Assembly: GCF_041435015.1 (NCBI RefSeq)
Contig: NZ_CP107989.1
Coordinates: 8,370,001 to 8,434,000 of the forward strand
Source: Streptomyces canus
GTDB taxonomy: Bacteria; Actinomycetota; Actinomycetes; Streptomycetales; Streptomycetaceae
DNA: 64,000 nucleotides
Direction of reading: 5' to 3'
Under the pieces are notes generated by a model that was not told where the DNA came from, did not search any database, and saw nothing but the letters and a program-made list of their open reading frames with translations. The position numbers and the translations under genes are program-made. Of the stretch, positions 2,139 to 23,400 are shown in pieces (positions within the stretch are counted from its first letter, which is position 1; every line of letters starts with the position of its first letter).

Positions 2139-2272
2139 GGCCACCCCCGGCGCCACCTGTCGAGCCGATCAGCCGCCCAGCATGACACGCACAGGTCGTT
2201 CACAACATCCGATGAACGGCTTAGGTCTGGACCGGCGCGCCCCTTCGCGCCCCGGCATGGGAGGCTTGGGGC

Positions 2273-2959
2273 ATGGCCGCGCAGATCAATCCCAGCATCC
2301 TGTCCGCCGACTTCGCCCGCCTCGCGGACGAGGCGAAGGCGGTCGAGGGAGCCGACTGGCTCCACGTAGACGTCATGGACAACCATTTCGTCCCGAACCT
2401 CACGCTCGGTGTGCCGGTCGTAGAGTCTCTGGCCCGTGCGACGGACACCCCGCTGGACTGCCATCTGATGATCGAGGCCCCCGATCGCTGGGCGCCCCAG
2501 TACGTAGAGGCGGGGGCTTCCTCCGTCACCTTCCATGTGGAGGCTGCCGCCGCTCCGGTCCGGCTCGCCCGGGAGATCCGGGCCAAGGGCGCCCGCGCCT
2601 CCATGGCGCTGAAGCCCGCGACGCCCATCGAGCCGTACGAGGACCTGCTCCCCGAGCTCGACATGCTGCTGATCATGACGGTCGAGCCCGGTTTCGGGGG
2701 ACAGGCCTTCCTCGACATCATGCTCCCCAAGATTCGCCGGACCCGCGAGTTGATCAGCAAGCACGGCCTTGAGCTGTGGCTCCAGGTCGACGGTGGCGTC
2801 TCGGCCTCCACCATCGAGCGCTGCGCGGACGCGGGCGCCGATGTCTTCGTCGCCGGGTCCGCGGTGTACGGGGCGTCCGACCCGGCCGAGGCGGTACGTG
2901 TATTGCGCAACCAGGCGGAGGGGGCGACCGCTAAGGCTTCGTGGGCGTGCGACCACTGA
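2273..2959 (+). CDS. rpe: Ribulose-phosphate 3-epimerase
   Basis: The 228-residue product is a full-length TIM-barrel epimerase that interconverts ribulose 5-phosphate and xylulose 5-phosphate in the pentose phosphate pathway. It begins with [10 protein letters not shown] and has the metal and catalytic motif [12 protein letters not shown] (about residues 32-43), the CHLMIE strand, [12 protein letters not shown] around residue 145, and VDGGV with a following phosphate-binding glycine region. A GGGAGG ribosome site at 2259-2264 lies 8 nt before the ATG. The last residues ([11 protein letters not shown]) are a non-conserved tail. Only weak intergenic features separate it from the downstream regulator. 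Confidence 0.95.
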
Positions 2960-2981
2960 GCCAAGGGAACGTGAACGGCTT

Positions 2982-2997
2982 CGATCAGGGCTGATCA
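2982..2997. promoter_or_regulatory. Small inverted repeat upstream of the SorC/DeoR-type regulator
   Basis: The arms GATCA (2983-2987) and TGATC (2992-2996) surround GGGC and extend by further partly matching bases. The site lies in the 100-bp gap between rpe and the regulator, where an autoregulatory operator would be expected. It is short and could be chance. Confidence 0.25.
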
Positions 2998-3061
2998 AGT
3001 GCGCCGGATCTGCAAGGATGAACGGCGAATCCAGAGTGTGAACAGCAGTGAGGAGATCGCC

Positions 3062-4081
3062 GTGTCGGGTATGTCGGCTGGCCGGTCAGCCATGCGGATG
3101 GGACCCGCTGAGCTGGTGCAGGCGGCGGCCATGGCCCGCCGCTTCTACCTCGAGGGCAAGTCCAAGATCCAGATCGCGGAGGAGTTCGGCGTCAGCCGCT
3201 TCAAGGTGGCCCGGGTCCTGGAGACCGCCCTCGAACGGGATCTCGTACGCATCGAGATCCGCGTGCCGGCCGAGCTGGACGCCGAGCGCTCCGACGCGCT
3301 CCGCGCCCGGTACGGCCTCAGGCACGCCGTCGTGGTGGAGTCCCCGGCCGAGGCCCAGGACTCGCCGGACCCCGAGAACCTGGGAGAAGTGGCCGCCGAC
3401 CTGCTCGGCGAACTGGTCGACGAGGGCGACATCCTGGGCCTGGCCTGGGGTCGTTCCACCATCCACATGGCGGCCGCCCTCGACCGGCTGCCACCGTGCA
3501 CGGTGGTGCAGTTGACCGGTGTGTACGACGCCGGGACCGCCGAGCGCGGTTCGGTGGAGGCGGTGCGGCGGGCCGCCCAGGTGTCCGGCGGGGACGCCCA
3601 CCCCATCTACGCGCCGATGCTGCTGCCGGACGCGGCCACCGCGGCCGCGTTGCGCAACCAGACCGGGATCGCCCGGGCCTTCGAGTACTTCGACAAGGTC
3701 ACGGTCGCCTGTGTCTCCATCGGCTCCTGGGAGCCGGGCATCTCGACGGTGCACGACATGCTCAGCGACGAGGAGCGCGGCCACTACGCCTCGCTCGGCG
3801 TCGCCGCCGAGATGTCCGCGCACCTCTTCGACTCCGAAGGGCGCCGGGTCGGGCGGGACCTGGGCGAGCGGTGCATCACCGTCAAGGCCGACCAGCTCCG
3901 CCGTATCCCCGAGGTCGTCGCGATCGCCGGGGGACAGCGCAAGGCGGCCGCGATCGACGCGGTGCTGCGGTCCGGACTCGTCACCAGCCTGGTGACGGAC
4001 ACCTCCGCCGCGGACTACCTGATGACGGCGGGGACGACCCCGAAGCCGGCACTCAACAGGGCGGACCCGGACGGGCCCTGA
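3062..4081 (+). CDS. SorC/DeoR-type sugar-binding transcriptional regulator
   Basis: A helix-turn-helix region occupies about residues 12-60 (FYLEGKSKIQIAEEFGVSRF), followed by a long C-terminal sugar-binding domain of the SorC/DeoR type with the characteristic LGLAWGRSTIHMAAAL segment. Such regulators sense a phosphorylated sugar, so its place beside rpe suggests control linked to pentose phosphates, but the target is unknown. I chose GTG 3062 because AGGAG at 3051-3055 lies 6 nt upstream; an in-frame GTG at 3038 would add eight residues. The product is about 339 residues, normal for the family. The gene ends 9 bp before the interrupted ribonuclease gene. Confidence 0.88.
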   Translation: MSGMSAGRSAMRMGPAELVQAAAMARRFYLEGKSKIQIAEEFGVSRFKVARVLETALERDLVRIEIRVPAELDAERSDALRARYGLRHAVVVESPAEAQDSPDPENLGEVAADLLGELVDEGDILGLAWGRSTIHMAAALDRLPPCTVVQLTGVYDAGTAERGSVEAVRRAAQVSGGDAHPIYAPMLLPDAATAAALRNQTGIARAFEYFDKVTVACVSIGSWEPGISTVHDMLSDEERGHYASLGVAAEMSAHLFDSEGRRVGRDLGERCITVKADQLRRIPEVVAIAGGQRKAAAIDAVLRSGLVTSLVTDTSAADYLMTAGTTPKPALNRADPDGP

Positions 4082-4090
4082 CGGAAGGCC

Positions 4091-4372
4091 ATGAGGGACG
4101 GCCGCGGCAGCATCGAGCGCATGCTGCTGCGGTTCGTCTCCCGAATGCTTCTGTGTCTGCTCGTCCTGACGGGGTGTTCGGCCACCGGCACCGAGCCGTC
4201 GACGGGCGGCGGCCTGGCCACCGTCCAGGAGTCGAAGCTCCCGGCCGAGGCCCGGCAGACCCTCGAACTCATCGACAGGGGCGGGCCGTTCCCGTACGCC
4301 AAGGACGGCTCGGTCTTCGGGAACTTCGAGCGACTGCTGCCCGCGCGCCAGCGCGGTTACTACCACGAGTAG
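4091..4372 (+). pseudogene. Guanyl-specific ribonuclease (RNase Sa/barnase family), 5' fragment cut by insertion
   Basis: This encodes a lipoprotein-type export signal (LLCLLVLTGC, with a lipobox cysteine) and the first half of a microbial guanyl-specific ribonuclease: LPAEARQTLELIDRGGPFPY, then VFGNFERLLP and RGYYHE. The frame stops right after the catalytic glutamate of the YYHEY motif because the following DNA is foreign. The missing part, TVPTPGSRDRGARRIVTG through the DDHY motif, lies at 14038-14155 in the matching frame. The 93-residue product keeps the Glu but lacks the catalytic Arg and His, so it should be inactive. GGAAGG at 4083-4088 is close to the ATG. Confidence 0.85.
4361..4371. 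repeat. Left copy of 11-bp direct repeat flanking the insert (attL-like core)
   Basis: TACCACGAGTA occurs here and again at 14027-14037. Bases just outside the match differ on both sides. Joining the host DNA across one copy restores an uninterrupted RNase Sa-type reading frame, so the repeat marks the recombination point. It covers codons for Tyr-His-Glu-Tyr of the active site. Confidence 0.8.
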
Positions 4373-4383
4373 CTGCCTCTGAC

Positions 4384-4399
4384 TGTCTCTGACTGCCTC
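4384..4399. repeat. Left copy of 16-bp repeat near element end
   Basis: TGTCTCTGACTGCCTC is found here and identically at 13931-13946 in the same orientation. Around each copy the DNA has a loose 10-nt periodicity of the type CTGYCTCYGA. Such repeats near both ends could be arm-type recombinase binding sites. Confidence 0.6.
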
Positions 4400-5422
4400 G
4401 CGTCCTCATATGCGCAGATCGGATGGGTGTGTCAGGGGTGCCTGAAGGTGTGGGGTCGATTCAGGGTCGAAGTGGCTGCCCGGTAAACGGCAATTCTCTG
4501 GAAGGCTGGGGAATCTCATCCTGAGAGTTGGCGATCGGTGAGCCAGGACCGGCTCCGCCTTGAGCTGAACCCGGCGTACAGCCCGACTCGTCTGCCGCCA
4601 GGCGCTCCTGACCAGTGAAAGCACCGGCCAAGGGCCCTTTTTGCCGTACTAGGGGCTTGTTCGGATCCCGTTCCGCACCGGGTCAAACCGGACCGCGCGG
4701 CTACGTAAATAGCCACGAGAGTAACCGTGCATAGGGGGCCGGAGGTTGGCGGCTGCGCGGCCTGACCTGGTGCCGGCGCCGCTGCCCTCCGAGACGGCGA
4801 CGATGTAGAGCCTAGGTGGGCAGCAATGCTGCTCAGCCCCAGGACGCCACTGGTGTGAACGAAATGTCCTGCCGGACTGCTCCGGCACGTCGTTCAGCAC
4901 CGTTGTAGAGGTCGTTGCCGCGGCGCAGGGTGACGCTCTGATGGTCTCGGGCCAGCCGATCCCATACCCAAGGGGTCCCGGCCGGCGTGTTTCTGTCAGC
5001 TGGGCCTTGGACGCCGTACGGATGCCGGGCGACGCCCTACGACGGCACCGAGTCACCGGACCGGTCACCCGCCGTTGCACCAGGCCCTGTGCCGTTGCAC
5101 AGGCCCCGTGCTTGCGGCGCCCCACTCGACCTTGCGGCGCTCCACTCGACGCGGTGCCCCCGCCGGGCCTACCTTCGAGGTCCTTCGTCCTTCCCGTGCA
5201 GGGGGACCCATGCGGTCACACAGACCAACGCCGTGGGCGGCAGCGCGGTTGCTGATGTCCGTACGGCTGCTGCTCGCATGGGGTCCCATCCTTCCGGGAC
5301 ATCCATGGCCCGACAACGGACTGTACCTGTGGGTGTGCAAGGGGGAGGGGGCTGCCGGTGGGCGGAGTTCCTGCCGATCGAACCCTCCGACTACTTCCAC
5401 GAATTCGCGCTGCGTCGGGCGG
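4400..5422. other. Gene-poor left end of the element
   Basis: About 1 kb without a reading frame that I recognise. It contains short hairpins, a T-rich run near 4638-4643, and the tandem duplications at 5071-5150. Possible coding-like snippets in several frames do not join into a domain. It may hold eroded genes. Confidence 0.5.
5071..5150. repeat. Two adjacent 20-bp tandem duplications
   Basis: Positions 5071-5090 and 5091-5110 are imperfect copies of a unit starting GCCGTTGCAC. Positions 5111-5130 and 5131-5150 are copies of CTTGCGGCGCCCCACTCGAC with one mismatch. The four units abut, making an 80-bp minisatellite-like block in otherwise non-coding DNA. Confidence 0.7.
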
Positions 5423-6601
5423 CTACACCAGGACGGGCAGCGATACGAGCCCGCGGACGAGACGCGTGTGGCGCCACTCCAACCGGTCGGCTGGTCCCGC
5501 GAGACGGATTCCGGGAAACCGGCTCAGTACCGCCCGCAGGGCGATCTCCGCCTCGGCCTTGGCCAGGGGAGCGCCGACGCAGCGGTGGATGCCGTGGCCG
5601 AAGCTGAGGTGGGCGGTGGCGTCCCGGTCCAGGTCGAGCAGGTCCGGTGACGGGAAGCGGGCCGGGTCGCGGTTGGCGGCTCCGAGGGCGATCAGTACCG
5701 GGGCGCCGGCCGGGATGTCGGTACCGCCGAGCGTGACGGGTTTTGTGGTGAACCGGAAGGTGGCGGTACTGACGGGGGAGTCCCATCGAAGCAACTCGTC
5801 GAGTACGGCCGGGACATCGTCCGGATTCTTCCGGAGGCGATCCAGCTCGGCGGAGCGCTGGAGCAATGCGAGGGTGGCGTTGCCGAGGAAGTTGGTGGTG
5901 GTCTCGTGCCCGGCCACGAGCAGCAGTACCGCCAGGGAGACCAGTTCCTCTTCGCTGAGATGGTCGCCTCCGTCGCGAGCCGAGATGAGTCCGTCGAGGA
6001 GGGAGTTGCCGGGGTTCAGGCGCTTGGCGGCGATGAGGGTCGTCATGTAGTCGGCCAGGGAATGCGAGGCCGCGTCGATGGAGTCGGGGTTGCCTGCCGC
6101 GAACAGCTCTCCGGACCAGCGCCGGACGTCGGGTCGGTCTCCCGCAGGCACTCCGAGCAGTTCGCAGATCACGATGACCGGCAGCGGCACCGCCAGGCCG
6201 GCCACGAAGTCGAACCGTTCGCCGACGGGCCACTGATCCAGCAACTCGTCGGTGACGCGGGCGATGAACGGGCGCAGCTGCGCGACGGCTCCGTTCGTGA
6301 ATGCCTTGGTCACCAGCTTGCGCAGCCGGGTGTGCTGGGGTGGATCGGTGGCCAGCATGGTGTGTGCCACCGCCGGGTGCAGCCGACGCCGTGGCTCCTT
6401 GCCCGCGAAGAACGCGGCCGTGTCCTTCGAGAGCCGAGCGTCGCCGAGGGCATCCCGGGCTTCCGCGTAGCCGGTGACCACGTAGCTGGGGTGACTACCG
6501 GACCCGGTGGGCAGGGGCTGCACGGGGCAACTGGACCGCATGGCCGCGTAGGTGGGGTAGGGGTCCTGGAGGAAGCGGGGGTCTTGGCTCAGGTCGGTCA
6601 T
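5423..6601 (-). CDS. Cytochrome P450 monooxygenase
   Basis: The 392-residue soluble bacterial P450 has the I-helix oxygen-activation motif AGHETTT, the K-helix ExxR in DELLRWDSP, and the heme-cysteine loop FGHGIHRCVGAPLAKAE. It needs ferredoxin and a reductase, neither of which is beside it. MTDLSQDPRF at 6601 fits the usual family N-terminus. The frame stays open upstream to 6880 without a good ribosome site, and that extra segment is not P450-like. It is the leftmost cargo gene of the insert. Substrate and subfamily (CYP105/107-like by feel) are unknown. Confidence 0.9.
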   Translation of the reverse strand: MTDLSQDPRFLQDPYPTYAAMRSSCPVQPLPTGSGSHPSYVVTGYAEARDALGDARLSKDTAAFFAGKEPRRRLHPAVAHTMLATDPPQHTRLRKLVTKAFTNGAVAQLRPFIARVTDELLDQWPVGERFDFVAGLAVPLPVIVICELLGVPAGDRPDVRRWSGELFAAGNPDSIDAASHSLADYMTTLIAAKRLNPGNSLLDGLISARDGGDHLSEEELVSLAVLLLVAGHETTTNFLGNATLALLQRSAELDRLRKNPDDVPAVLDELLRWDSPVSTATFRFTTKPVTLGGTDIPAGAPVLIALGAANRDPARFPSPDLLDLDRDATAHLSFGHGIHRCVGAPLAKAEAEIALRAVLSRFPGIRLAGPADRLEWRHTRLVRGLVSLPVLV

Positions 6602-7115
6602 GCTTTCAGGCTGCAGCCCGCTCCGGCTGGTCGTCATCCCCGACACGCCCAACACAGGGCCCGCAGGCGTCGGTTGGCCGGTTGCCAGGAGGAGCAGGAG
6701 CCGCTTCGTGTCCGCGCGGACGTCCTGGTGGGAGACGGCCTTCGCCGACGGCAGGACGACCTCGTCGGCGAACCGGCCGGTCTTCGAGGCGGGCGGCGCT
6801 GCCTTCACAACCACCGCTTCGACCGCCGTGGCTCCTTGCTCCGTTCCAGCGCCGAACGCGGCCTGGGCCATCTCCCGCACCCGGACCGGTACGGCCGAAG
6901 GACGAGGACCAACCGGTCCAGATTCACGCGGAGATGAGTCCCGTCATCCGCGGAGTGGGGCGCATCAGCTGCACGACGCTCGCCCGCCGGTACCTTCCGC
7001 GCATGGGCGTTGCCCTCGTCCCCTGCACCGCACAGGACTTCATCAACGCCATAGCAGCGTAAGTCTTCACGCCGATCGTCCCTGCGCCGATACGCTGTGA
7101 CGACCATGCAGGTGC
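6602..7115. other. Unassigned DNA between P450 and recombinase remnant
   Basis: About 510 bp. The P450 frame stays open upstream to an ATG at 6880, giving about 93 residues that match nothing I know. Sequence immediately next to the truncated recombinase is also unrecognised and may be another eroded fragment. No convincing promoter is visible. Confidence 0.4.
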
Positions 7116-7661
7116 CTTCAGTTCGCCGGTGAGGAACTCCAGGCCGACGTCGCTCGCCTTCAGCTCCTCGGCGAGCATGGCAAGTTCGATGCCGCGGCCG
7201 GGCTGCTTGTGCTCGTGGACGACGAGGGTCACGGCGACGCCGGAGGAGCGAATCTCCCAGGCGAGCTTCACAGCACCTTCCGGTTCGGGGCGTCGGGTGG
7301 CGCGGGTGGAGACTTCTCCGAAAAGACGCGGGTCACCCCAGCCTTGGCGAGGGAGTCGAGCTGCGCGTCCAGGGACTGCCGGGCGGTCGAGGCACGGGGC
7401 GTATCCGAGGCGGACGTGCCCGACCGGCTCGGCGCCGGCGTTCGCGGGCCGGGGCAGCTCGGCCCATACCGACCCCGCCTTGCGTACGGCGGGGGTCCGC
7501 ACACTGAGCGCCTTGGAGAGTTGGGGCACGAGGCGGAAGCGCGCGGTGTGGTACTCGATGGCCACTCTGCCCTTCCCGGTCCGGCATGGGGAGCCCGCCG
7601 GGGTGGCGCAGGTGGACATCGGGCAGTCGTGGGATTCCACGCGCTTGCAGTCGTCGCTCAC
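7116..7661 (-). pseudogene. Serine recombinase (resolvase/invertase type), frameshifted and truncated
   Basis: The sequence resembles a resolvase-type recombinase I recall as common in Streptomyces: a cysteine-containing leader (DCPMSTC, AGSPCRTGKG), then VGHVRLGYA, the STARQSLDAQLDSL segment, TRVFSEK, STRATRRPE and LAMLAEELKASDVGLEFLTG. It is broken. One extra base near 7396-7399 shifts the frame after LGYA, and one missing base near 7310-7318 restores it after FSEK. Similarity ends abruptly after GELK at about 7116, so the C-terminal half, including the DNA-binding domain, is gone. It is likely a relic of the mobility functions of this insert or of an older element. Confidence 0.8.
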
Positions 7662-7775
7662 GACCCCAAACTGTTTTATGAGGGTGTTTCACGAGCGACC
7701 ACCTAGAAAAGTGGGACTGGCCAATGGGATAGGCAGGCAGCCCCTCCGAAAGCCCTCCACAGACCACAGAAGATG

Positions 7776-8207
7776 TCAGGCGGCGAACACTTGGGAGTCG
7801 TCGGCGAACGCCTTGAATTCCAGGGCGTTGCCGGCCGGGTCGAGCAGGAACATCGTCCATTGCTCGCCGGTTTCGCCTGCGAAGCGCACGTAGGGCTCGA
7901 TGACGAATTCGGTGTCCGCGGCGCGCAGCCGGTCGGCGAGCCGGTGGAAGGCGTCGATGGTCAGGATCAGCCCGAAGTGCGGTACGGGGACGTCGTGGCC
8001 GTCGACCGGGTTGTGTATCTGTCCGGTACGGGCAGGGGCGAGGTGGGTGACGAACTGGTGGCCGTGCAGATTCCAGTCCACCCAGGTGTCGGCGCTACGG
8101 CCCTGCTCCAGGCCGAGCGTCTCGCCGTAGAAGCGGCGGGCGGCGTCCAGGTCGTCGACCGGGACAGCGAGGTGGAAGCGGGGGATGGGGGAGGTGAGAA
8201 CGGACAT
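7776..8207 (-). CDS. VOC-fold (glyoxalase/bleomycin-resistance) protein
   Basis: The 143-residue protein has two beta-alpha-beta-beta-beta modules typical of the vicinal oxygen chelate fold: [17 protein letters not shown] at the N-terminus and [15 protein letters not shown] near the C-terminus. The usual metal ligands (His near residue 12, Glu in ALEFK) can be seen. Members are dioxygenases, isomerases, glutathione transferases or drug-binding proteins. It is the last gene of a leftward set after the SDR and old yellow enzyme genes, so a role in modifying the same electrophilic or aromatic compound is plausible. The exact reaction is unknown. Confidence 0.85.
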
Positions 8208-8248
8208 GGGTCTGGGGTTCCTTCCTTGCGGCGAGGAGTGCCTGGTCC

Positions 8249-9001
8249 TTACCAGCTCTGGCGGGTGGGGGAAATGATCAGGTCGTTGACAGTGACGTCG
8301 GCGGGCTGGGCGAGGGCGTAGACGACGGCGTTGGCGACGCTTTGCGGGCTGATGGCGATGGCGTTCAGTTCCTGGGCCGCCGTTCGTCCGGCGGGGTCGG
8401 TGACCTTGTCGGCCCAGCCGGTGTCGATGACGCCGGGGCTGATCGTGGAGGCCTTGATGCCTTCGCGGACGCCGAGTTCCCTGCGCATGGACTCGGTCAT
8501 GGCCCGGACGAAGAACTTGGTGGAGCTGTAGACACCGGCGCCGTCTCCGACCTGGTGGCCGGCGACCGAGTCCATGTTGAGGATGTGGCCGGCCTTCTGG
8601 CGAAGCATGACCGGAAGGACGGCGTGGACGCCGTTGAGGTAGCCGCGGATGTTCACGTCGATCATCCGGTTCCAGTCGTCCATCGCGCCGTCCTTCCAGA
8701 AGGAGAACAGCATCAGGCCGGCGTTGTTGACCAGGACGTCGATCCGGCCGAACCGTTCGACAGCGAAGTCGGCCAGTGCCTGCATGTCCACGACGTCGGC
8801 GGCGTCGGCGACGTCGGCGAGCCTGGCGACGGCGGTGCCGCCGGTCATGTTGATGTCGGCGACCAGTTGGTCGAGGGTTTCCTGGCCGCGGGCGGCGGCG
8901 ACGATCTTGGCGCCGCGGGCTGAGAGGGCCTTGGCGCTGACGGCGCCGATGCCGGAGGAGGCGCCGGTGATGACGACGACCTTGTCCTGCAGGTGGTTCA
9001 T
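8249..9001 (-). CDS. Short-chain dehydrogenase/reductase
   Basis: A classical 250-residue SDR. The Rossmann glycine motif TGASSGIG lies near residues 13-20, NNAG around 90, the catalytic serine in MDSVAGHQ, and YSSTK gives the Tyr-x3-Lys pair. NAD(P)-dependent oxidation or reduction of a carbonyl or alcohol is expected. The start ATG 9001 follows the old yellow enzyme gene by 73 bp on the same strand, and the VOC gene follows after 41 bp, so co-transcription is likely. Confidence 0.9.
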
Positions 9002-9074
9002 GGGGATCTCTCAGTGCGGTGGTTCAGCGCGCCTTCCCTGGTGAGGGCAGCGTGGCGGAGGCTGTAAGGGGGTG

Positions 9075-10184
9075 TCAGCGCTTGCGGCGCTCGACGACGT
9101 AGGCGTACTGGTCGGGCCAGGTCGGCTCGGCGTCGAGCGTGAGCGCGGCGTGCTGTGGCCAGTAGGGGTTGCGCAGGAGTTCACGGCCGAGGAGGACGGC
9201 GTCGGCCTGCCCGCTGGTGAGGATGTCCTCGGCCTGCTGCGGCTCGGTGATGATGCCGACGGCGCCGGTGGGGATACCGGTGGCCTGGCGGGCCTGGGTG
9301 GCGAAGGGCACCTGGTAGTTGGGCCCGGCGACGATCTTGGCGTCGGGGACCATGCCGCCGGTGGACACGTCGAGCAGGTCGACGCCGTGGGCTTGGAGTT
9401 CCTTGGCGAGGCGGACGGTGTCGTCCCCGGTCCAGCCCTCGCGTTCGTCCTCGGGATTCTCGGTCAGCCAGTCGGTGGCCGAGGTGCGGAAGAAGACCGG
9501 CAGATCCTCGGGCCACACCGCGCGGACGGCGTCGACGACCTCCAGGGCGAAGCGGAGGCGGTTCTCGAAGCTGCCGCCGTAGGCGTCGGTGCGGTGGTTG
9601 GACGCCGGGGAGAGGAAGGAGTTGATCAGGAAGCCGTGGGCGCCGTGCACCTCGACCACCTGGAAGCCGGCGGCCAACGCGCGCCGCGCGGAGTCCGCGA
9701 AGTCCCGGACAAGCTGCTGGATCTCCTCCACGGTCAGTTCATGAGGAACAGCCAGTCCGCCGAACGCGATGGCGCTGGGCGCGACGGGCTGCCAGCCGCC
9801 CTCGGCCTCGGGCACGTACCGGTCGGAGAGCCAGGGCTTGTCCATCGACGTCTTGCGGCCGGCGTGCGCGAGCTGGATGGCCGGGACGGCGCCGTGCGCC
9901 TTGACGGCCTCGGCGATGCGGGTGAACGCCTCCTGCTGGCGGTCGTTCCACAGGCCCAGGTCCCAGGGGCTGATGCGCCCGTCGGGCCGCACGCCGGTGG
10001 CCTCGGCCATGACCAGGCCCGCACCGCCCGCGGCGCGGGAGGCCAGGTGGGTGAGGTGGAAGTCGGTCGGCACACCGGTGTCCGGGCCTTGGGCGGCGGC
10101 GGAGTACATGCACATCGGGGACATCCACACCCGGTTGGGTATCCGAAGCGAACGCAGGGTGAAGGGGGTGAACAGGCTACTCAT
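9075..10184 (-). CDS. NADH:flavin oxidoreductase, old yellow enzyme family (YqjM-like)
   Basis: The roughly 369-residue TIM-barrel flavoprotein starts SSLFTPFTLRSLRIPNRVWM and continues MSPMCMYSA, the YqjM-type FMN site with its cysteine. IQLAHAGRK and VHGAHGFLINSFLSP provide the conserved substrate-binding His residues and the FMN region, and ADAVLLGRELLRNPYW closes the phosphate site. The family reduces activated C=C bonds of enones, nitro compounds and similar electrophiles with NAD(P)H. I chose ATG 10184 over an upstream ATG at 10217 because the fold starts there. It lies in the leftward operon between the NmrA-like and SDR genes. Confidence 0.92.
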   Translation of the reverse strand: MSSLFTPFTLRSLRIPNRVWMSPMCMYSAAAQGPDTGVPTDFHLTHLASRAAGGAGLVMAEATGVRPDGRISPWDLGLWNDRQQEAFTRIAEAVKAHGAVPAIQLAHAGRKTSMDKPWLSDRYVPEAEGGWQPVAPSAIAFGGLAVPHELTVEEIQQLVRDFADSARRALAAGFQVVEVHGAHGFLINSFLSPASNHRTDAYGGSFENRLRFALEVVDAVRAVWPEDLPVFFRTSATDWLTENPEDEREGWTGDDTVRLAKELQAHGVDLLDVSTGGMVPDAKIVAGPNYQVPFATQARQATGIPTGAVGIITEPQQAEDILTSGQADAVLLGRELLRNPYWPQHAALTLDAEPTWPDQYAYVVERRKR

Positions 10185-10347
10185 GCAGGTGGTGCTTCTT
10201 TCGTGGTCGGTGATCACCGGACGGGCCGGCTGCCGTCCGGTGTCAGGCGATGATCGTGTGGAGGCCTGCGCCAGCGGGGCGTAGGCCGCTTCGGGGCCTC
10301 GCCCAGGACGCCGTGGAGATGCGGGGGCGCGGGCAGGAGGGCCGGGT

Positions 10348-10995
10348 TCAGGCGAGGCGGGTGACCGCGTCTGCGACGGGGGTGTCGCCGGAGGTCAGCT
10401 CGACGATGACGCGGCTGAGGGCGGGCTCGTGCAGGGCGGCGTCGATGAACGCGGCGACGTCGTCGCGGTGTACGTCGCCGTACTCGACGGCGGGCCCGGC
10501 GGCGACCCGCCCGGTACCCGGTCCGTCCAGCAGCGTGCCGGGGCGGACGATCAGCCAGTCCAGACCGGTGCGGGTGAGATGGACGTCGGCACTCTTCTTG
10601 ACCCTGACGTAGTGCTCGAAGCCTTCGGACGCTCCAGCGCCGCGCAGGGCGTCGGGGAACACGGAGACGAGGACGAAGCGCGGGACTCCGGCGGCCTCGG
10701 CCGCAGCGGCTGCCTTCTCCAGGCCTTTGCCGTCGATGAGCGTGGTCTTGTCCATGCCGGTTCCGTGGGCGCCGGCCGAGAACACCACTGCGTCGTGCCC
10801 GGCAAGCTTGCCTGCGAGCTCTTCCACGGAGTCGGCGATCAGGTCGCCGGTCACCGGCGTCGCGCCGTTCGCGCGGATCGTGTCGGCCTGGGCCGGGCTG
10901 CGGTGCATGCCGGTCACCTCGTCGCCGCGCTCGGACAGCAGGGCGGCGAGCCTGCTGCCGACACCTCCGGCGGCACCTATCTGGAACACCTTCAT
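10348..10995 (-). CDS. NmrA-like NAD(P)-binding epimerase/reductase
   Basis: The 215-residue atypical SDR begins MKVFQIGAAGGVGSRLA, a dinucleotide-binding GxxGxxG motif. It has FVLVSVFPD in the usual catalytic strand and the C-terminal substrate segment LIVRPGTLLDGPG. Such proteins are NAD(P)H sensors or reductases. A GGAGAGAGG ribosome site lies just upstream of ATG 10995. It is the first gene of the leftward operon and diverges from the GntR gene over a 90-bp region full of palindromes, so it is probably the direct target of that regulator. Confidence 0.88.
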   Translation of the reverse strand: MKVFQIGAAGGVGSRLAALLSERGDEVTGMHRSPAQADTIRANGATPVTGDLIADSVEELAGKLAGHDAVVFSAGAHGTGMDKTTLIDGKGLEKAAAAAEAAGVPRFVLVSVFPDALRGAGASEGFEHYVRVKKSADVHLTRTGLDWLIVRPGTLLDGPGTGRVAAGPAVEYGDVHRDDVAAFIDAALHEPALSRVIVELTSGDTPVADAVTRLA

Positions 10996-11030
10996 GGGAA
11001 TCGCCTCTCTCCTTGCCGGGCCATCGGCCA

Positions 11031-11079
11031 CCCCCGTTGTCCTAATGTTGACATTGCGACAACGGGGGAATGTTAACAT
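11031..11079. promoter_or_regulatory. Divergent operator region for the GntR regulator and redox operon
   Basis: A 38-bp palindrome (11031-11068) has 11-bp arms CCCCCGTTGTC and GACAACGGGGG around an inner AATGT-TG-ACATT. A second perfect palindrome, ATGTTAACAT, lies at 11070-11079, only 6 bp before the regulator ATG. GntR/FadR-type proteins bind short TGT/ACA palindromes like these. Both the NmrA-like gene and the regulator would be repressed by binding here. Confidence 0.7.
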
Positions 11080-11085
11080 CACGAC

Positions 11086-11769
11086 ATGGAGAAGAGTCAA
11101 CCCACAGGAGATCGCGTGGTGGCCCCCGCCCGCCGCCGCGGACTGGCCGACGAGGTCGCCGACCGGATCCGGGAGGCGATCTTCAGCGGTGCATACGCCC
11201 CCGGAGCACCGCTGCGAGAGGTCGAACTCTCCGGCGCACTGCAGGTCAGCAGGGGACCGGTGCGTGAGGCTCTGCGCGTGCTGGAGCGCGAGGGGCTCGT
11301 GCACTGCGCCTGGCACCGCGGCACCGTGGTCACGACGCTGTCCGCCGAGGATGTCGCCGAGCTCGACAGCCTGCGCGGCGCGCTTGAGGACCTCGCCGTC
11401 CAGCAGGCCATCGCGTACGCCTCCGAGGAGGACCTCGCCGGCATCGAGAAGGCAGCCGACGTAATGGACCGCACGACGGACCCGCATGCCATGGTCCGTC
11501 TGGACATCGCCTTCCACGACGCCGTGTTCGCCGCCACCGGCCACCAGCGTCTCGCCGCGGCCTGGGAGACCATCCGCTGCCAGGTCCACCTGTTCCTGCT
11601 GACCCGCATCGGCCTCAGCACCGAGGGCTACCTCGACTGCATCCCCCAGGAACACCACGCACTGGCCGCCGCCCTGCGCACCCGCGACCCCCAGGCCGCA
11701 CTCCCCCTCTTCGCCGTCCACCGCCGCCACGCCATGGACGTCGTGGCCGGCACGTCGAACCCCGCCTGA
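11086..11769 (+). CDS. GntR-family regulator, FadR/FCD type
   Basis: The 227-residue protein has a winged helix (about 20-85: LADEVADRIREAIFSG, ELSGALQVSRGPVREALRVL) and a C-terminal FCD ligand domain. The FCD metal-site residues are suggested by RLDIAFHDAV and the histidines in EEHH-like QEHHALAAAL and FAVHRRH. FCD regulators sense small carboxylates or related metabolites. It is divergent from the NmrA-OYE-SDR-VOC operon and overlaps the palindromic operators, so repression of that operon and of itself is the simplest model. Confidence 0.9.
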   Translation: MEKSQPTGDRVVAPARRRGLADEVADRIREAIFSGAYAPGAPLREVELSGALQVSRGPVREALRVLEREGLVHCAWHRGTVVTTLSAEDVAELDSLRGALEDLAVQQAIAYASEEDLAGIEKAADVMDRTTDPHAMVRLDIAFHDAVFAATGHQRLAAAWETIRCQVHLFLLTRIGLSTEGYLDCIPQEHHALAAALRTRDPQAALPLFAVHRRHAMDVVAGTSNPA

Positions 11770-11987
11770 CGACCGGTCCGCCCGCACCTGAGCACCGCCC
11801 AGCGCTGACGAAGCCTGCTCGTCATCGCCCGCACCGGCACCCATGGACATGTGTGACGGCAATCGGTCGCAGGTGGCCACCGTGTCCTGCCGGCGCAGCT
11901 CGACCGGTCCGTCGCTTCAGCGCCTCACTCCCGAAAGCTGCCCGCGCTCGGCCGAGATCACCCAACGCAATGAAGCACTACTGGTCG

Positions 11988-12584
11988 TTACCCGCGTTTG
12001 TCGCCGGGCCGGCCGTTCGCCTGGAGAGCGGTCGCACGCTGGTCGAGCCTGCGCACCGCGATTGCCCCCCACTGAAGGTTCTCCCGTTCGAACGACATCC
12101 CGCGCAGCAGGGTGAGGTAGGGGCCGATGCGCTCGGCCTCGGCGAAGTAGGCCTCCTCGGAGCGCCCGTCGAGCAGGCGCTGCCGGAGCCGCTCATAGCG
12201 GGCCAGTTTGTCGGCTGCCCACTCCATACGCTCGGTGATGGCCTTGCGGACCGCATGGATGTCGCCCGCGTCCAGGCACTGCACCTTGACCATCAATTCG
12301 TCCCGGATCACCGCAGGCTTGCCCAAAGGCTCTGCCGTGTAGGCGTGTACGGCTTCACGCCCGGCCTCGGTCAGGGAGAACAGTCGCTTGTTGGGGCGGC
12401 GCTCCTGCTCGACGAGGCGGGCCGTGACCAGCCCTTCGGCCTCCATGCGTTCCAGCTCCCGGTAGAGCTGCTGGGGTGTCGACATCCAGAAGTTGGCGAC
12501 CGTCGCGTCGAATCCCTTTGCAAGGTCGTAGCCGGACGCCTCGCCCTCGATCAGCGCGGCCATCACCGCGTTCCGCAATGCCAT
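11988..12584 (-). CDS. PadR-family transcriptional regulator
   Basis: The 198-residue protein has an N-terminal winged helix starting MALRNAVMAALIEGEASGYD, with the PadR signature SGYDLAK and QLYRELERMEAEGLV, then a C-terminal dimerisation coiled coil (ITERMEWAADKLARYERLRQ, followed by RLLDGRSEEA). PadR proteins respond to phenolics or drugs and usually repress a neighbour and themselves. An inverted repeat just upstream at 12610-12629 is a good operator. The SnoaL-like gene diverges across that site. Confidence 0.9.
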   Translation of the reverse strand: MALRNAVMAALIEGEASGYDLAKGFDATVANFWMSTPQQLYRELERMEAEGLVTARLVEQERRPNKRLFSLTEAGREAVHAYTAEPLGKPAVIRDELMVKVQCLDAGDIHAVRKAITERMEWAADKLARYERLRQRLLDGRSEEAYFAEAERIGPYLTLLRGMSFERENLQWGAIAVRRLDQRATALQANGRPGDKRG

Positions 12585-12609
12585 GGGTACACACTAGCAA
12601 CCACCGAGA

Positions 12610-12629
12610 CTAGTCAACTAGGTGACTAG
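12610..12629. promoter_or_regulatory. Putative PadR operator
   Basis: CTAGTCA (12610-12616) and TGACTAG (12623-12629) are perfect 7-bp arms around ACTAGG. The site begins 26 bp upstream of the PadR start codon. The AT-containing arms stand out from the GC-rich surroundings. Confidence 0.65.
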
Positions 12630-12663
12630 AGATCGGCCCCGGAGTCTATGGACAGCGCGTTGG

Positions 12664-12689
12664 TATTCGCTCTATCCTCAAAGCGAATA
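12664..12689. promoter_or_regulatory. Inverted repeat upstream of the SnoaL-like gene
   Basis: Arms TATTCGCT (12664-12671) and AGCGAATA (12682-12689) are separated by 10 bp, about 30 bp before the ATG. It could be an operator for an unlinked regulator or for the PadR protein. Confidence 0.45.
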
Positions 12690-12718
12690 TTCAATTTGTT
12701 GAGTATGCGAGGTGGCTC

Positions 12719-13111
12719 ATGCATCCGTTCCGCAAGGCCGTCGAGAGCGGTGACGTGGACGCCGTGGCCGGCTTGCTGGCCGACAACGTCGTCTTCACCA
12801 GCCCGATCGCCTTCAAGCCGTACTCGGGCAAGGCGATCACCGCCGCGGTCCTGCGTGGTGTCTTCCGCGTCTTTGAGGACTTCACCTACATCCGCGAGAT
12901 CGCCGGTCCCGCCGGCCGCGACCATGTCCTCGTCTTCACCGCGACCGTCGCCGGCAAGAAGCTCCAGGGCTGCGATCTCCTGCACTTCGACGAGAAAGGC
13001 AGGATCGACGACTTCACTGTGATGGTGCGCCCGCTCTCCGCCGCCCAGGCGCTGGCCGAGGCCATGGGCGCCCAGTTCGAGCGGATCGCACGCGAGGCCG
13101 CCGAACAGTGA
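12719..13111 (+). CDS. SnoaL/NTF2-like protein
   Basis: The 130-residue alpha+beta barrel protein has the SnoaL-like pattern: HPFRKAVESGDVDAVAGLLA, then VVFTSPIAFKPYSGK and a later LLHFDEKGRIDDFTVMVRP strand pair. Family members are cyclases, isomerases or small ligand-binding proteins. Active-site identity cannot be called. It is divergent from the PadR gene with two inverted repeats between them, so PadR control is plausible. It is the last confidently called gene of the insert. Confidence 0.82.
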   Translation: MHPFRKAVESGDVDAVAGLLADNVVFTSPIAFKPYSGKAITAAVLRGVFRVFEDFTYIREIAGPAGRDHVLVFTATVAGKKLQGCDLLHFDEKGRIDDFTVMVRPLSAAQALAEAMGAQFERIAREAAEQ

Positions 13112-13132
13112 CCACGAACGCGTTGCACCTCG

Positions 13133-13525
13133 GTGACACAGGGACCGCGGAACATGCCACACGCCTTTGATGCGGAACCTGGTGGAAACCCCCTGCCACG
13201 ACATGGAACGCACCAGCCCGGCGGAGACCGAGAGAGGGACGCGCCTGTTCCACGCAGGTGGCGGCGGCCACTCGCGATCTGTGCAGGCACTTTGACCCTC
13301 CTGGCGTGCGTCACGGTCTCAGTCGCCGCGGCCCACCACCGGACGGGGCAGCCGCAGCCCTCGTCCTGCCTGCCCCAGCAGGCTGCAGACACCTACACGT
13401 CGACGCCGACCCCCCTGCGGAGCCCTCTCGGCACCCCCATGGCCGGCCCGTCCTGTGACGCGACGGCCCCCGACCACGCCCCGGCCCCCGAACCAGCACC
13501 CATGGCGGGCCCTTCGCCGAATTAG
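13133..13525 (+). CDS. Hypothetical membrane-anchored or secreted proline-rich protein
   Basis: A 130-residue frame has a charged N-terminus, one hydrophobic helix (about 48-66: LAICAGTLTLLACVTVSVAA) and a proline/threonine-rich tail with two MAGP segments. An alternative start is ATG 13154. No domain is recognised, and its third-position GC bias is weaker than its neighbours. It could be a real small exported protein or a chance frame. Confidence 0.4.
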   Translation: MTQGPRNMPHAFDAEPGGNPLPRHGTHQPGGDRERDAPVPRRWRRPLAICAGTLTLLACVTVSVAAAHHRTGQPQPSSCLPQQAADTYTSTPTPLRSPLGTPMAGPSCDATAPDHAPAPEPAPMAGPSPN

Positions 13526-13763
13526 ACGGATGCCTCAGCAAGGCCCACCCTCAGTTCGCAGCCAAGGGTCGCTTAACCCGGTGCTAGCTGGACACCTCGT
13601 CACACTGGCGGCGCAGCGCCTCCCGCGGCGAGTCGGCTGAATGGATGAGTGGTCTGCCGCTGTGGTTCTGCACGGTGAGGTCGTCCCGCAAGGACAAGGG
13701 CGCCACCCAGGCCCGCTAGAACCAGGGGTGGTACCCGGAACCGACCTCCGATCGGTGCCGGCG

Positions 13764-13793
13764 ATGCCTCCAGGATTGCCGTCCTGGAGGCAT
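13764..13793. terminator. Perfect 12-bp hairpin in the right end of the element
   Basis: ATGCCTCCAGGA (13764-13775) pairs with TCCTGGAGGCAT (13782-13793) around a 6-nt loop. There is no T-run. It could terminate transcription in either direction or be a folded recognition site for a recombinase or transposase. Confidence 0.5.
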
Positions 13794-13930
13794 TCGTATG
13801 CCTGGCCCCGCTCTGGAGGCAGGCGTCCCCATCGCAACTCGACCAAGGCAGGAACAGAGAGCCGTCGAGGTCACCGCTGCTGATCGATCTCCGTCAACTC
13901 GGGTCTCTCGGAGGCAAGTTGCAGAGGTAT

Positions 13931-13946
13931 TGTCTCTGACTGCCTC
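13931..13946. repeat. Right copy of 16-bp repeat near element end
   Basis: It is identical to 4384-4399 in the same orientation and lies 80 bp inside the right 11-bp core. The neighbouring bases continue a 10-nt periodic pattern. Confidence 0.6.
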
Positions 13947-14026
13947 CGATCGTCTCCGCAACCCGTCCTAGCAGGTCACAGCCGTTTCGACCTTCATCAG
14001 TCCAGGTCAGAGGGGTGCGGTCGGGT

Positions 14027-14037
14027 TACCACGAGTA
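14027..14037. repeat. Right copy of 11-bp direct repeat flanking the insert (attR-like core)
   Basis: TACCACGAGTA, identical to 4361-4371. The ribonuclease frame restarts directly after it in the same phase. Confidence 0.8.
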
Positions 14038-14155
14038 CACCGTCCCCACGCCGGGCTCGCGCGATCGTGGGGCCCGGCGCATCGTCACCGGGCAGGGTGG
14101 GGAGATCTACTACACCGATGATCACTACGACTCGTTCAGGGCGGTACTGAGATGA
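14038..14155 (+). pseudogene. Guanyl-specific ribonuclease, 3' fragment
   Basis: The frame continues from the right repeat as YTVPTPGSRDRGARRIVTG, then EIYYTDDHYDSFRAVLR and a TGA stop. This is the C-terminal half of the RNase Sa family, with the catalytic arginine in RGARR and the catalytic histidine in DDHY. It has no start codon of its own and matches, in phase, the 5' fragment at 4091-4372. Its stop overlaps the barstar ATG by ATGA, the normal translational coupling of an RNase and its inhibitor, so the pair was once an operon. Confidence 0.85.
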
Positions 14156-14466
14156 CGGCACGCGTGGTCATGCTGGACCTCGACGGGGTCGCGGACAAGG
14201 CGGGCCTGATGGAGCGCTGCGTCCGGGACCTGCGGCTGCCGGACTGGTTCGGCCGTAACTGGGACGCGCTGGCCGACGTCCTCTCCGACCCGGGCCTGTG
14301 GTCCGAGGACGGTTCCGAGGACGCTGGCGAAGAGGAGACCGTCGTCGTCGTACGGAACTGGGACCGGTACGCGGGTGCGCGGCCGGACGAGTGGGAGACC
14401 GCGCGCGAGGTGTTCTCGCAGGCGTCCGCGCTCACCGTGGCGCTCGCCCTTGGAGGTTCGTCCTAA
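14152..14466 (+). CDS. Barstar-family ribonuclease inhibitor
   Basis: The 104-residue protein shows the barstar pattern: a first strand VVMLDLDGVADKAGLM, the binding helix region LRLPDWFGRNWDALADVL, then VVVVRNWDRY and a C-terminal strand VALALGG. Barstars bind the active site of cognate guanyl ribonucleases in the cytoplasm and protect the producer. Its start overlaps the stop of the RNase remnant by 4 bp. The gene itself looks intact although its cognate RNase is interrupted, so it is now an orphan inhibitor unless it acts on another RNase. Confidence 0.88.
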   Translation: MTARVVMLDLDGVADKAGLMERCVRDLRLPDWFGRNWDALADVLSDPGLWSEDGSEDAGEEETVVVVRNWDRYAGARPDEWETAREVFSQASALTVALALGGSS

Positions 14467-14556
14467 GGCCCCTCCGGGCGGTCTGGACGATTCGCCCGTG
14501 GGTGGTATTCCGGCCGGCATGGGAGAATGAAGTACGTGCTCTTTCCCCCTGGCTGA

Positions 14557-16041
<1,485 letters not shown>

Positions 16042-16058
16042 ACCCGTCCGCTGTGCGG

Positions 16059-16082
16059 GGCCCCCGTCGAAAATCGGGGGCC
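16059..16082 (+). terminator. Terminator-like hairpin after guaB1
   Basis: GGCCCCCG (16059-16066) pairs with CGGGGGCC (16075-16082) across an 8-nt loop, 18 bp after the stop. There is no T-run, as is common for Streptomyces terminators. Confidence 0.65.
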
Positions 16083-16112
16083 GTTCGCCTTCCCGGTCCG
16101 TACGGTCGTCGT

Positions 16113-16628
16113 ATGGAGATCAGCGTCTGCCGGAGCGGCGATGTCGCGCTGCTGGACCGGTACATGGGATCGCCCGGAGCCACGTCCTTCCACGCCCGGC
16201 GGTTCGCGCGGCAGGAGGCGGGGGAGTGCACGTATCTCGTCGCCCGGCTGGAGGGGCGGCCCGTGGGGCACGCGGAGATGCGCTGGATCGGGTGTGCCGC
16301 CCCCGAGGTCGCCCTGGACTGCCCCGAGATCGGCGGCCTCGCGGTCGCCCCCGAGGAACTGCGCTCACGGGGGATCGGCACCGAGCTGATCCGGGCCGCC
16401 GAGGAACTGGCCCGCAGGCGGGGTCTGACGACCGTGGGCATCGGGGTCGGGCAGGACAACCCGCGCGCGGCGGGCCTGTACGCACGGCTCGGCTACCGGC
16501 CGGCGACGAACTACCTGGACCGCTACTCGTACCGGGATCACGACGGCACGACCCGTGAGTGTGTCGACGCCTGCACGTTCCTCGTCCGAGAACTCTCGTC
16601 AGGCCACCTTGACGTCAAGCCTGCTTGA
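16113..16628 (+). CDS. GNAT-family N-acetyltransferase
   Basis: The 171-residue protein has the acetyl-CoA motif of GNAT enzymes: VALDCPEIGGLAVAPEELRS, then RGIGTELIRAAEELARRRG (motif A, R/Q-x-x-G-x-G/A) and GVGQDNPRAAGLYARLGYRP (motif B). It transfers acetyl to an unknown amine, possibly a protein N-terminus, drug or metabolite. No clear ribosome site precedes ATG 16113, so a leaderless transcript is possible. The C-terminal codons overlap palindromes that appear to control the next gene. Confidence 0.85.
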   Translation: MEISVCRSGDVALLDRYMGSPGATSFHARRFARQEAGECTYLVARLEGRPVGHAEMRWIGCAAPEVALDCPEIGGLAVAPEELRSRGIGTELIRAAEELARRRGLTTVGIGVGQDNPRAAGLYARLGYRPATNYLDRYSYRDHDGTTRECVDACTFLVRELSSGHLDVKPA

Positions 16629-16634
16629 CGCAAG
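16608..16634. promoter_or_regulatory. Paired palindromes before the small HTH gene
   Basis: CTTGACGTCAAG (16608-16619) is a perfect 12-bp palindrome. CTTGACGCAAG (16624-16634) is a close second copy, 16 bp downstream. The stop codon of the acetyltransferase lies inside the second copy, and the next ATG is at 16644. TTGAC also resembles a -35 box, so this may be promoter plus operator. Confidence 0.6.
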
Positions 16635-16643
16635 CCTGGGAGC

Positions 16644-17030
16644 ATGACGACACCCGAGAGCATCGAGCCGCAGTACACCCTGCTGACCGCCGTCTCCCGG
16701 CTCGACGAGCTGCGCATGCGGGAAGCGCTGGGCGGGGCCACGGACACCCCCGACCGGGCCGAACTGCTCGAACTCCTCGCGCTGAGCGAGGTCGTGGCCC
16801 GCAAGGCGTCCTACGGCCGTCAGCTGACCGTGCGCGCGGCCCGCGAGGCCGGCGCCTCCTGGTCGCAGATCGGGGCGGCGACGGGCACCAGCAAACAGGC
16901 CGCGTGGGAGGCCCACACACGCTGGATCGACGCCCAGCGGGAGGCGTACGGCAAGCCCGGCCAGATGGGGTTCGACGAGGCGGACGTGGCTGAGGCGCGG
17001 GCCGTGGCGGGGGAGCCGGAGGACCGCTGA
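16644..17030 (+). CDS. Small helix-turn-helix protein of unknown function
   Basis: The 128-residue mostly helical protein has a C-terminal HTH-like stretch, AAREAGASWSQIGAATGTSK followed by QAAWEAH, typical of small actinobacterial DNA-binding proteins. It is probably a regulator. The paired palindromes just upstream could be its own operator. Its regulon is unknown. Confidence 0.7.
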   Translation: MTTPESIEPQYTLLTAVSRLDELRMREALGGATDTPDRAELLELLALSEVVARKASYGRQLTVRAAREAGASWSQIGAATGTSKQAAWEAHTRWIDAQREAYGKPGQMGFDEADVAEARAVAGEPEDR

Positions 17031-17055
17031 CGAGGGCTGACGGGTGCCGGGCGGG

Positions 17056-17130
17056 GGCACGCGCAACGAACGCCCGCCCATCGGCCCGGAACGCAACGAT
17101 CTTGCGACTGCGTGCAAGGTTGCTGCATTA
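17056..17130. promoter_or_regulatory. Cluster of GCAA/TTGC half-sites before the permease gene
   Basis: CGCAA (17092-17096) faces TTGCG (17102-17106) with 5 bp between. TGCAA (17113-17117) is followed by TTGC (17120-17123), and another GCAAC lies near 17063. Lrp/AsnC proteins often bind arrays of such weak half-sites, and an Lrp gene sits downstream of the permease. Confidence 0.4.
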
Positions 17131-17197
17131 CGACTGTGACGTCCGGGCTCGTAGGGTGCTGCGCTGTACTCACCTGCAGCGACGAAGGAGTCAGCGC

Positions 17198-18664: not shown

Positions 18665-18674
18665 TCCACCCACC

Positions 18675-19578: not shown

Positions 19579-19603
19579 CGGAACCTCCTGTCGGGCGGGA
19601 GCC

Positions 19604-20344: not shown

Positions 20345-20496
20345 GCTTCCCCTCTGAGTCGGTCTCTGTGCACAGCGTGACCAGGGTAGTCGACATTCCG
20401 AGGCATCCGGAGAGGGCTCAGATTGTGCGGGAATTCGGGGTCAGCGTTTCGCCAGTGTTTACCGGCGCGACACCAGCGGCAGCCTTACTGAGGCCA

Positions 20497-23397: not shown

Positions 23398-23400
23398 CCC

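Follow-up and report, generated by a model that had tools for sequence, protein, structure and literature searches.

A probable integrase-less remnant of an integrative element interrupts an RNase Sa-type gene of Streptomyces canus at its active-site codons

Introduction

According to the accessible part of a survey of actinomycete integrative and conjugative elements (AICEs) in Streptomyces, 36 of 51 insertions lie in tRNA genes and 14 of 51 in protein-coding genes, one family member resides in rlmN with 11-nt repeats, the target changes with the integrase, and decayed forms (DAICEs) consist of a partial integrase, cargo and two repeats (PMC9513070). The portion at hand of a second account likewise places AICEs with tyrosine integrases mostly in tRNA genes (PMC3218068), while PAISt of Streptomyces turgidiscabies is described, in the available part of its source, with an 8-bp palindromic core at the 3' end of bacA (PMC4057263). 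The locus considered here lies in a stretch of 64,000 nucleotides from Streptomyces canus (RefSeq assembly GCF_041435015.1, contig NZ_CP107989.1, positions 8,370,001 to 8,434,000 of the forward strand), referred to as the window, whose source genome (G000) comprises 10.68 Mb in 5 contigs. In this window, the gene for a secreted ribonuclease of the RNase Sa type, directly followed by the gene for its inhibitor barstar, is split by an insert. Our best explanation, to which we assign a probability of about 0.86, is that this insert is the stranded, integrase-less remnant of a family of integrative elements that has switched its targets, and that it entered the RNase gene site-specifically at an 11-bp core.

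Results

An RNase Sa-type gene is split at its active-site codons

The 11-mer TACCACGAGTA is present in exactly two copies in the window, at 4361-4371 and 14027-14037. The RNase Sa-type gene is interrupted after the codons for YYHE, and its halves are 9,666 bp apart, each bordered by one copy of the 11-mer. The glutamate of YYHE, after which the gene is directly cut, is presumably the catalytic base. A preliminary description of this DNA had proposed that a 5' fragment ending in YYHE and a stop and a 3' fragment starting after an identical 11-bp repeat belong to one RNase Sa-type gene, that the stop codon of this gene overlaps the barstar start and that the inhibitor gene is intact, and all of this is borne out: each piece separately matches PF00545, the TGA of the 3' piece (14153-14155) overlaps the barstar ATG (14152) at the end of a single open frame, and the barstar reading frame is unbroken. 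The features at the two borders, with the arms named after their position in the insert and compared with elements in two other genomes (G049 and G063) that are introduced below, are:

4091-4372, plus strand: 5' piece of the RNase Sa-type gene, 93 aa, YYHE followed by TAG (PF00545, E=4e-9, profile positions 9-56)
4361-4371, plus strand: attL, left copy of the 11-bp core TACCACGAGTA
4372-4566, plus strand: left arm, in which a repeat of 16 bp lies at 4384-4399 and a 20-bp motif of the GTCGA type at 4452-4471; counting the core, 238 bp are 78.6% identical to the left end in G049
13631-14026, plus strand: right arm of the end family, 77-80% identity with G049 and G063 across the junction; homology stops near the start of a helix-turn-helix (HTH) gene termed gene A, the body of which is absent
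14027-14037, plus strand: attR, right copy of the 11-bp core TACCACGAGTA
14027-14155, plus strand: 3' piece of the RNase gene, a single frame running from YHEY through the stop codon (PF00545, profile positions 52-97)
14152-14466, plus strand: barstar gene, reading frame intact (PF01337, E=3.6e-22)

Close relatives have the empty site. In S. canus DSM 40017 and in strain LUP47B, the window flanks align up to position 4371 and again from 14027, with 97-98% DNA identity near the site; for DSM 40017, the left flank (1-4371) is 97.2% and the right flank (14027-24000) 97.4% identical. As the flanks join exactly at the core in these relatives, the insert comprises 9,655 bp together with one of the two 11-bp core copies. 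Over the compared stretches, the RNase halves are 97.3% and 98.5% identical to their counterparts in DSM 40017, and the broken gene has therefore not undergone additional decay; at the protein level, the 3' piece is 100% identical over 42 aa. P0012, a relative in which this gene is unbroken, has matches to the structures of RNase Sa3 (E=4.7e-33) and RNase Sa. Since relatives have one uninterrupted gene at the same place, the notion that the two fragments are separate ancestral genes, which would have spoken against the preliminary description, is untenable. Although the borders in the window are known from the assembly alone, an assembly error at one or both of them has a practically negligible probability, given that both junctions are matched by an independently assembled genome, the right one by a second genome as well, and that truncated RNase proteins exist in other data.

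Intact genes are also the rule further afield. We inspected the best 80 of 90 loci from a barstar scan of named genomes, 54 of them from Streptomyces, and in 47 of these 54 the barstar-linked RNase gene runs uninterrupted across the cut point; the exact core TACCACGAGTA is present in 30 of the 47. A further PF00545 gene, likewise uninterrupted, is located elsewhere in the source genome (C1:2241774).

Several barstar loci deserve separate mention. Six of the 54 Streptomyces loci contain orphan inhibitors, that is, barstar without a detectable RNase (L043, L047, L049, L056, L064 and L067). At 9506-10001 in S. xylophagus (L063), barstar is accompanied by a 5'-shortened RNase piece and an inverted complete RNase of another type, with no arm sequence. 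In Streptomyces sp. S.PB5 (L041, 10423-10479), the match to the guaB-like gene is limited to the first 19 codons, and in HmicA12 (L069, 10276-19736) barstar and guaB are about 9.4 kb apart.

The same junction occurs in a paralogous RNase gene

PF00545 was found in 322 of 392 Streptomyces genomes surveyed for their best matches, and 13 of these genomes were examined closely. Among the latter, two (G049 and G063) contain further split RNase genes of the same kind; with close examination confined to 13 genomes, the total in the 392 may be higher. The target in both is a different paralog of the RNase Sa type, with 57% identity to the gene in the window for the 5' piece and 71% for the 3' piece. 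It is cut at the same codons with the same core TACCACGAGTA, and the sequence preceding the right core is nearly that of the window. The inserts measure about 45 kb in G049 and 52 kb in G063, and the left end in G049 is homologous to the left arm of the window (78.6%, as listed above). In G063, the locus is rearranged, with the 5' half of the RNase gene on the opposite strand near an intact copy, and a C-terminal remnant of a tyrosine integrase lies beside an RNase half. Recurrence of the same junction with homologous element ends in other genomes means that the junction in the window is not due to chance. The earlier proposal that RNase Sa genes serve as attachment sites for integrating elements is supported by these junctions, and the search recommended for other Streptomyces genomes yielded both intact loci and insertions at the same codons.

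The same preliminary description had suggested that the neighbouring inhibitor gene makes RNase genes a harmless target. This received no support: near the RNase targets in G049 and G063 there is no credible barstar (one match with E=0.017 lies about 11 kb away, in L167), and most of the targets identified below are not RNases. Barstar was accordingly rejected as a general reason for target choice.

Two truncated RNase proteins (P0001 and P0010), found among 120 listed of 824 protein matches and seen as proteins alone, end at the same codon and hint at a possible second insertion at a barstar-linked gene. Two other candidates, G289 and G375, were discarded, the former for flanking DNA unlike the arm, the latter for want of such a junction. 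The G289 locus (C21:41825-41962, L173) is a different break at nearly the same codons, in which the 3' half of an RNase gene next to barstar is preceded by unrelated DNA that does not resemble the arm. As a separate observation, the insert in G049 contains an intact, inverted RNase paralog (L166:16302-16691).

One family of ends adjoins an RNA gene and three kinds of protein gene

A search with the entire insert, in which one or two candidates per genome were scored, found some part of it in 379 of the 392 genomes (own genome included) at E<=1e-30, the best listed match outside the source genome spanning 2.7 kb. The ends emerged only when the 378 bp of the right end (13660-14037) were used as the query, which matched 41 of the 392 genomes, again including the source genome. 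We fetched the 30 best right-arm loci and assigned their targets by eye: three junctions are in RNase Sa genes (window, G049 and G063), nine at genes for VanA-like Rieske oxygenases, two at citrate synthase genes and ten at rnpB, and six are unclear. At the VanA-like genes, the arm meets the first codons; the assignment rests on a protein match in three genomes and on Pfam for the family. Citrate synthase was identified by Pfam on an intact paralog in G292. At rnpB, the arm meets the 3' end, as indicated by RF00010 at the matching place in G069 (L256) and by shared sequence; Rfam gave no match for 13 short junction loci, which hold only the last 30-35 nt of rnpB, or for window positions 3000-16500.

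The core depends on the target. It is TACCACGAGTA in the RNase genes, TACTGGCGGTA in citrate synthase, [A/T]ACCCGGCGTA in rnpB and, if of the same length, TACCACTGGTT in the VanA-like genes. All resemble TAC-N5-GTA, with the last base deviating in the VanA-like core and the first base being variable in rnpB. The earlier idea that conserved codons offer a stable target is in line with these junctions, as the same ends abut coding sequence of citrate synthase and Rieske oxygenase and the 3' end of rnpB. We built a maximum-likelihood tree from 27 right arms, leaving out L186, L196 and L204; in it, the arms group by target, with 7 label changes compared to a mean of 14.3 after shuffling, and the VanA arms form one clade (100/98). 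On the other side, homology at 76-84% links the left arms of three elements with different targets, G063 (RNase), G095 (citrate synthase) and G069 (rnpB), the value for G063 and G095 being 84%. A 20-bp motif of the GTCGAATC type (90%) is found in the left arm of the window and, at a similar distance, in G095 and G069; in G049 it is common to G063 too. For the VanA-type elements, the 30-58 kb examined did not reveal a left border, and the patterns of the left-end junction and of the left repeat occur in the source genome alone among the 392.

These junctions bear on two other explanations. A circular DNA sharing 11 bp with the RNase gene by chance could have integrated by a single crossover, an event that gives exactly the pattern seen, and the interior of the insert is indeed a mosaic of unrelated blocks. 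The same ends are, however, located at the same codons in two other genomes, another 21 of the 30 inspected junctions fall into three further recurrent sites, and relatives have integrases on the same contigs, all of which renders such illegitimate integration highly improbable. The 11-bp direct repeats bordering the insert could also represent the target duplication of a transposon, but the end regions 4300-5000 and 13400-14100 contain no stretches of at least 10 bp that match in inverted orientation, the junction sequence changes with the target yet keeps a common pattern, and the tyrosine integrases in relatives and the att-like structure point elsewhere; a transposon is hence very improbable too.

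Three further observations concern the vicinity of the arms. In the source genome, one more right arm, in a decayed state and without gene A, is found beside a short core of the VanA type (C1:1724525-1724624, L216). An intact citrate synthase paralog is encoded inside or near the insert in G292 (composite 57677-58837, L215/L222-L224), and an intact VanA-like paralog is found in G040 (composite 14444-15505, L229), 41 kb from the arm.

Relatives encode a predicted tyrosine integrase and a common backbone module

A tyrosine integrase (PF00589) was first seen in G292, about 21 kb from the right arm on the same contig. Integrases 47-58% identical to it are encoded on the right-arm contig in G239 (about 20 kb from the arm), G212 (about 25 kb), G069 (about 27 kb, broken) and G095 (about 160 kb), those of G239 and G095 being confirmed by Pfam. 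Overall, the integrase search gave some match in 10 of 12 genomes, several of them distant and unlinked to the arm. G095 reveals a complete layout: residues 39-385 of citrate synthase end at the core TACTGACGGTA and are followed by the left arm, the integrase, some 160 kb of further DNA, gene A, the right arm and the core TACTGGCGGTA, at which residues 1-41 are located. Gene A (about 500 aa, HTH) matches near the right arm in 16 of 17 loci checked, several matches being partial, and in many loci it is followed by an HTH_58 gene, a gene for a ParA-like protein and small genes. It has 333 relatives at E<=0.001, and the named ones among the 120 listed are HTH or transcriptional regulators or hypothetical proteins; gene A could still be a disguised recombinase, its matches being of the HTH type only. 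These predictions place a tyrosine integrase at the left end of the elements in relatives and, at the opposite end, a module of HTH and ParA-like genes.

Not all copies conform to this layout. No recombinase (PF00589 or PF00239) was detected near the arm in five of six genomes, namely in the inserts of the window and G049 and in the 56-58 kb to the left of the arm in G040, G228 and G267. PF01580 (FtsK/TraB family) gave no match on the contig of the G212 element (C26).

The elements also differ in cargo. Gabija-like defence genes were noticed in three of them (G049, L167:1-3418; G292, composite 58931-62195; G212, composite 22787-24427). PADLOC assigns the pair in G049 to GajA/GajB, and its GajA is 97% identical in G292 and 80% identical in G212; no such pair was found in the examined stretches of G239, G069 and G095. 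Other cargo includes an NB-ARC/TPR protein in G239 and a helicase-nuclease protein in G212.

The interior of the insert is a mosaic without integrase or backbone

Between its two preserved ends, the copy in the window consists of metabolic genes arranged as a mosaic; integrase and backbone, including gene A, are gone, a loss that the preliminary description had not foreseen. A direct repeat of 16 bp lies directly inside both ends, at 4384 and 13931. The remaining features of the insert and its conserved neighbours are:

2999-4081, plus strand: upstream regulator with PF04198 sugar-binding domain, conserved neighbour of the empty site
4567-4598, plus strand: 32 bp resembling the 3' end of rnpB, at which the family has its alternative attachment core; the rnpB-type junctions in L199 and L200 share 32 and 30 identical bp with it
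5423-6880, minus strand: cargo, cytochrome P450 (PF00067)
6924-7661, minus strand: pseudogene of a serine resolvase-like recombinase, frameshifted and with its 3' end cut off; 75% aa identity to residues 1-182 of 289 of a 'recombinase family protein' of a Streptomyces plasmid
7776-8207, minus strand: cargo, glyoxalase/VOC protein (PF00903)
8249-9001, minus strand: cargo, SDR oxidoreductase (PF00106)
9075-10217, minus strand: cargo, flavin mononucleotide (FMN) oxidoreductase of the old yellow enzyme type (PF00724)
10348-10992, minus strand: cargo, NAD(P)-binding (NmrA-like) protein, start approximate (PF13460)
11086-11769, plus strand: cargo, GntR/FCD regulator (PF07729, PF00392)
11988-12584, minus strand: cargo, PadR regulator (PF03551)
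12719-13111, plus strand: cargo, SnoaL-like protein (PF12680)
14590-16041, plus strand: IMPDH/GuaB-like gene, conserved neighbour (PF00478)

The blocks have different closest relatives. Those of the P450 reach up to 89% in single genomes of the genus and those of the recombinase piece 86-89%, the operon at 7713-11913 is about 88-90% identical on an S. anulatus plasmid (L116) and 93% in G264, and the PadR/SnoaL pair reaches up to 85%. The Pfam matches of the nine main open reading frames include no TraB-type FtsK translocase.

Three candidates for an agent or a source were set aside. An integrase hidden in the two unmatched end segments was rejected: PHROGs returned nothing for 10 open reading frames, matches to plasmid DNA were trivial only, and matches to phages were none. 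The resolvase pseudogene was dismissed as the agent because this copy is truncated, has its relatives among plasmid genes and is not located near either end. Viral contigs, finally, do not qualify as relatives, since three pattern scans yielded 3, 2 and 0 contigs; the GC content of these five is 44-62%, and inspection by eye revealed no similarity in the vicinity of the match.

Discussion

The insert in the window has an empty-site counterpart in close relatives and a core duplicated at both of its ends, as expected of a decayed tyrosine-integrase element. Its right arm is homologous to the ends of integrase-bearing elements, and its left arm is homologous to that of the integrase-less G049 only, apart from the 20-bp motif shared with G095 and G069. 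Since it lacks an integrase of its own, it is best regarded as a remnant rather than as a working element. The following course of events would best account for this picture. The core TACCACGAGTA represents the active-site codons YHE(Y) of the RNase Sa gene, and an element of the family would have inserted itself there by site-specific recombination; its agent was most likely a tyrosine integrase of the type located at the left end in relatives. Recombination would have left the core on both sides, with the left arm next to the 5' half and the right arm next to the 3' half of the gene. The integrase and the HTH/ParA-like backbone would have been lost later and the cargo replaced, so that the interior now consists of metabolic genes and a resolvase pseudogene. 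From its own genome, the insert should presently be immobile. The rnpB-like stretch in the left end may perhaps be a trace of tandem accretion.

A number of points weigh against this explanation. No PF00589 or PF00239 profile match exists in the inserts of the window or G049 (a profile to which the resolvase pseudogene is invisible), tblastn recovered no piece of the family integrase from them either, the window being searched with the G292 protein, and the source genome encodes no close relative of the family integrase, the best match having 26% identity. The left arm common to the window and G049 is, but for the 20-bp motif, unlike the one that accompanies the integrase in G063, G095 and G069, and the rnpB-like stretch about 195 bp from the core, in the window (4567-4598) as well as in G049, is unexplained. 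In the tree, the RNase arms do not form one clean clade but are mixed with citrate synthase arms and two other arms (clade 96/97). Arm sequence was present at none of the 80 named barstar loci, and no second barstar-linked insertion is documented. Excision and integration, moreover, are deduced here from sequence comparison.

Alternatively, the integrase-less form could itself be mobile, its ends being moved in trans by the integrase of a related element, which would make the insert a living, cis-mobilisable cassette instead of a remnant. We retain this alternative, unlikely as it is, because one type of left end, devoid of an integrase (78.6% identity), is found in different RNase genes in the window and in G049; both inserts also contain cargo between conserved arms, and the truncated proteins P0001 and P0010 would fit. 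Then again, the common left end could be older than both losses, the source genome is devoid of a close integrase relative, the truncated RNases are known as proteins alone, and the left-end junction and left repeat patterns are confined, among the 392 genomes, to the source genome. A wider and distinctly tentative conjecture is that one integrase lineage repeatedly switched from the 3' end of rnpB to catalytic or signature codons of protein genes (those for RNase Sa, citrate synthase and Rieske oxygenase), with nothing but a TAC-N5-GTA-like core retained, and that integrase-less end pairs are perhaps moved in trans, each as a cassette of cargo that inactivates the gene it enters.

The findings add an attachment site, the active-site codons of a secreted RNase, that we did not find described in the literature searched. 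One end family spans a ribozyme gene and three protein genes, which allows target switching by tyrosine integrases to be followed at the sequence level. Of the Streptomyces genomes examined, about one in ten (41 of 392) contains the end sequence, which adjoins a gene publicly labelled as HTH regulator or hypothetical, and the arms together with the core would offer defined substrates for recombination assays.

In the literature searched, which leaves most subscription journals outside, neither these targets nor the end family were found described. The words 'Ribonuclease', 'RNase' and 'rnpB' are absent from the main text of PMC9513070, so that RNase Sa and rnpB are not reported as targets there. 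No report of rnpB as an integrase attachment site in Streptomyces was found: a search combining rnpB with genomic islands and integrases led to one cyanophage paper, in the accessible part of which rnpB figures as a promoter only, and a search for RNase P attachment sites in Streptomyces surfaced only a Bacillus paper, likewise accessible in part. As far as their accessible parts go, publications on RNase Sa and barstar in Streptomyces comprise protein-interaction and modelling work only, and a search for tyrosine recombinases with protein-coding integration sites in Actinobacteria returned no report.

The kind of element is nevertheless already known. Like AICEs and DAICEs, as far as the accessible part of PMC9513070 describes them, the insert is chromosomal, bordered by short direct repeats and probably attributable to an integrase; unlike AICEs, it has no TraB-type FtsK protein among the Pfam matches of its nine main open reading frames, and the backbone in relatives consists of the HTH gene and ParA-like genes. 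With PAISt, compared here by the description in the available part of PMC4057263, it shares a very short core in a protein gene; PAISt has internal att copies and modular excision, and whereas its core is an 8-bp palindrome at the 3' end of bacA, the coding sequence in the window is cut in the middle of the gene. The target itself resembles the RNase Sa/barstar pair known from structures (PDB 1mgr, 1ay7 and others) in that the inhibitor gene overlaps the RNase gene, and differs from it in that the RNase is broken at its active-site codons.

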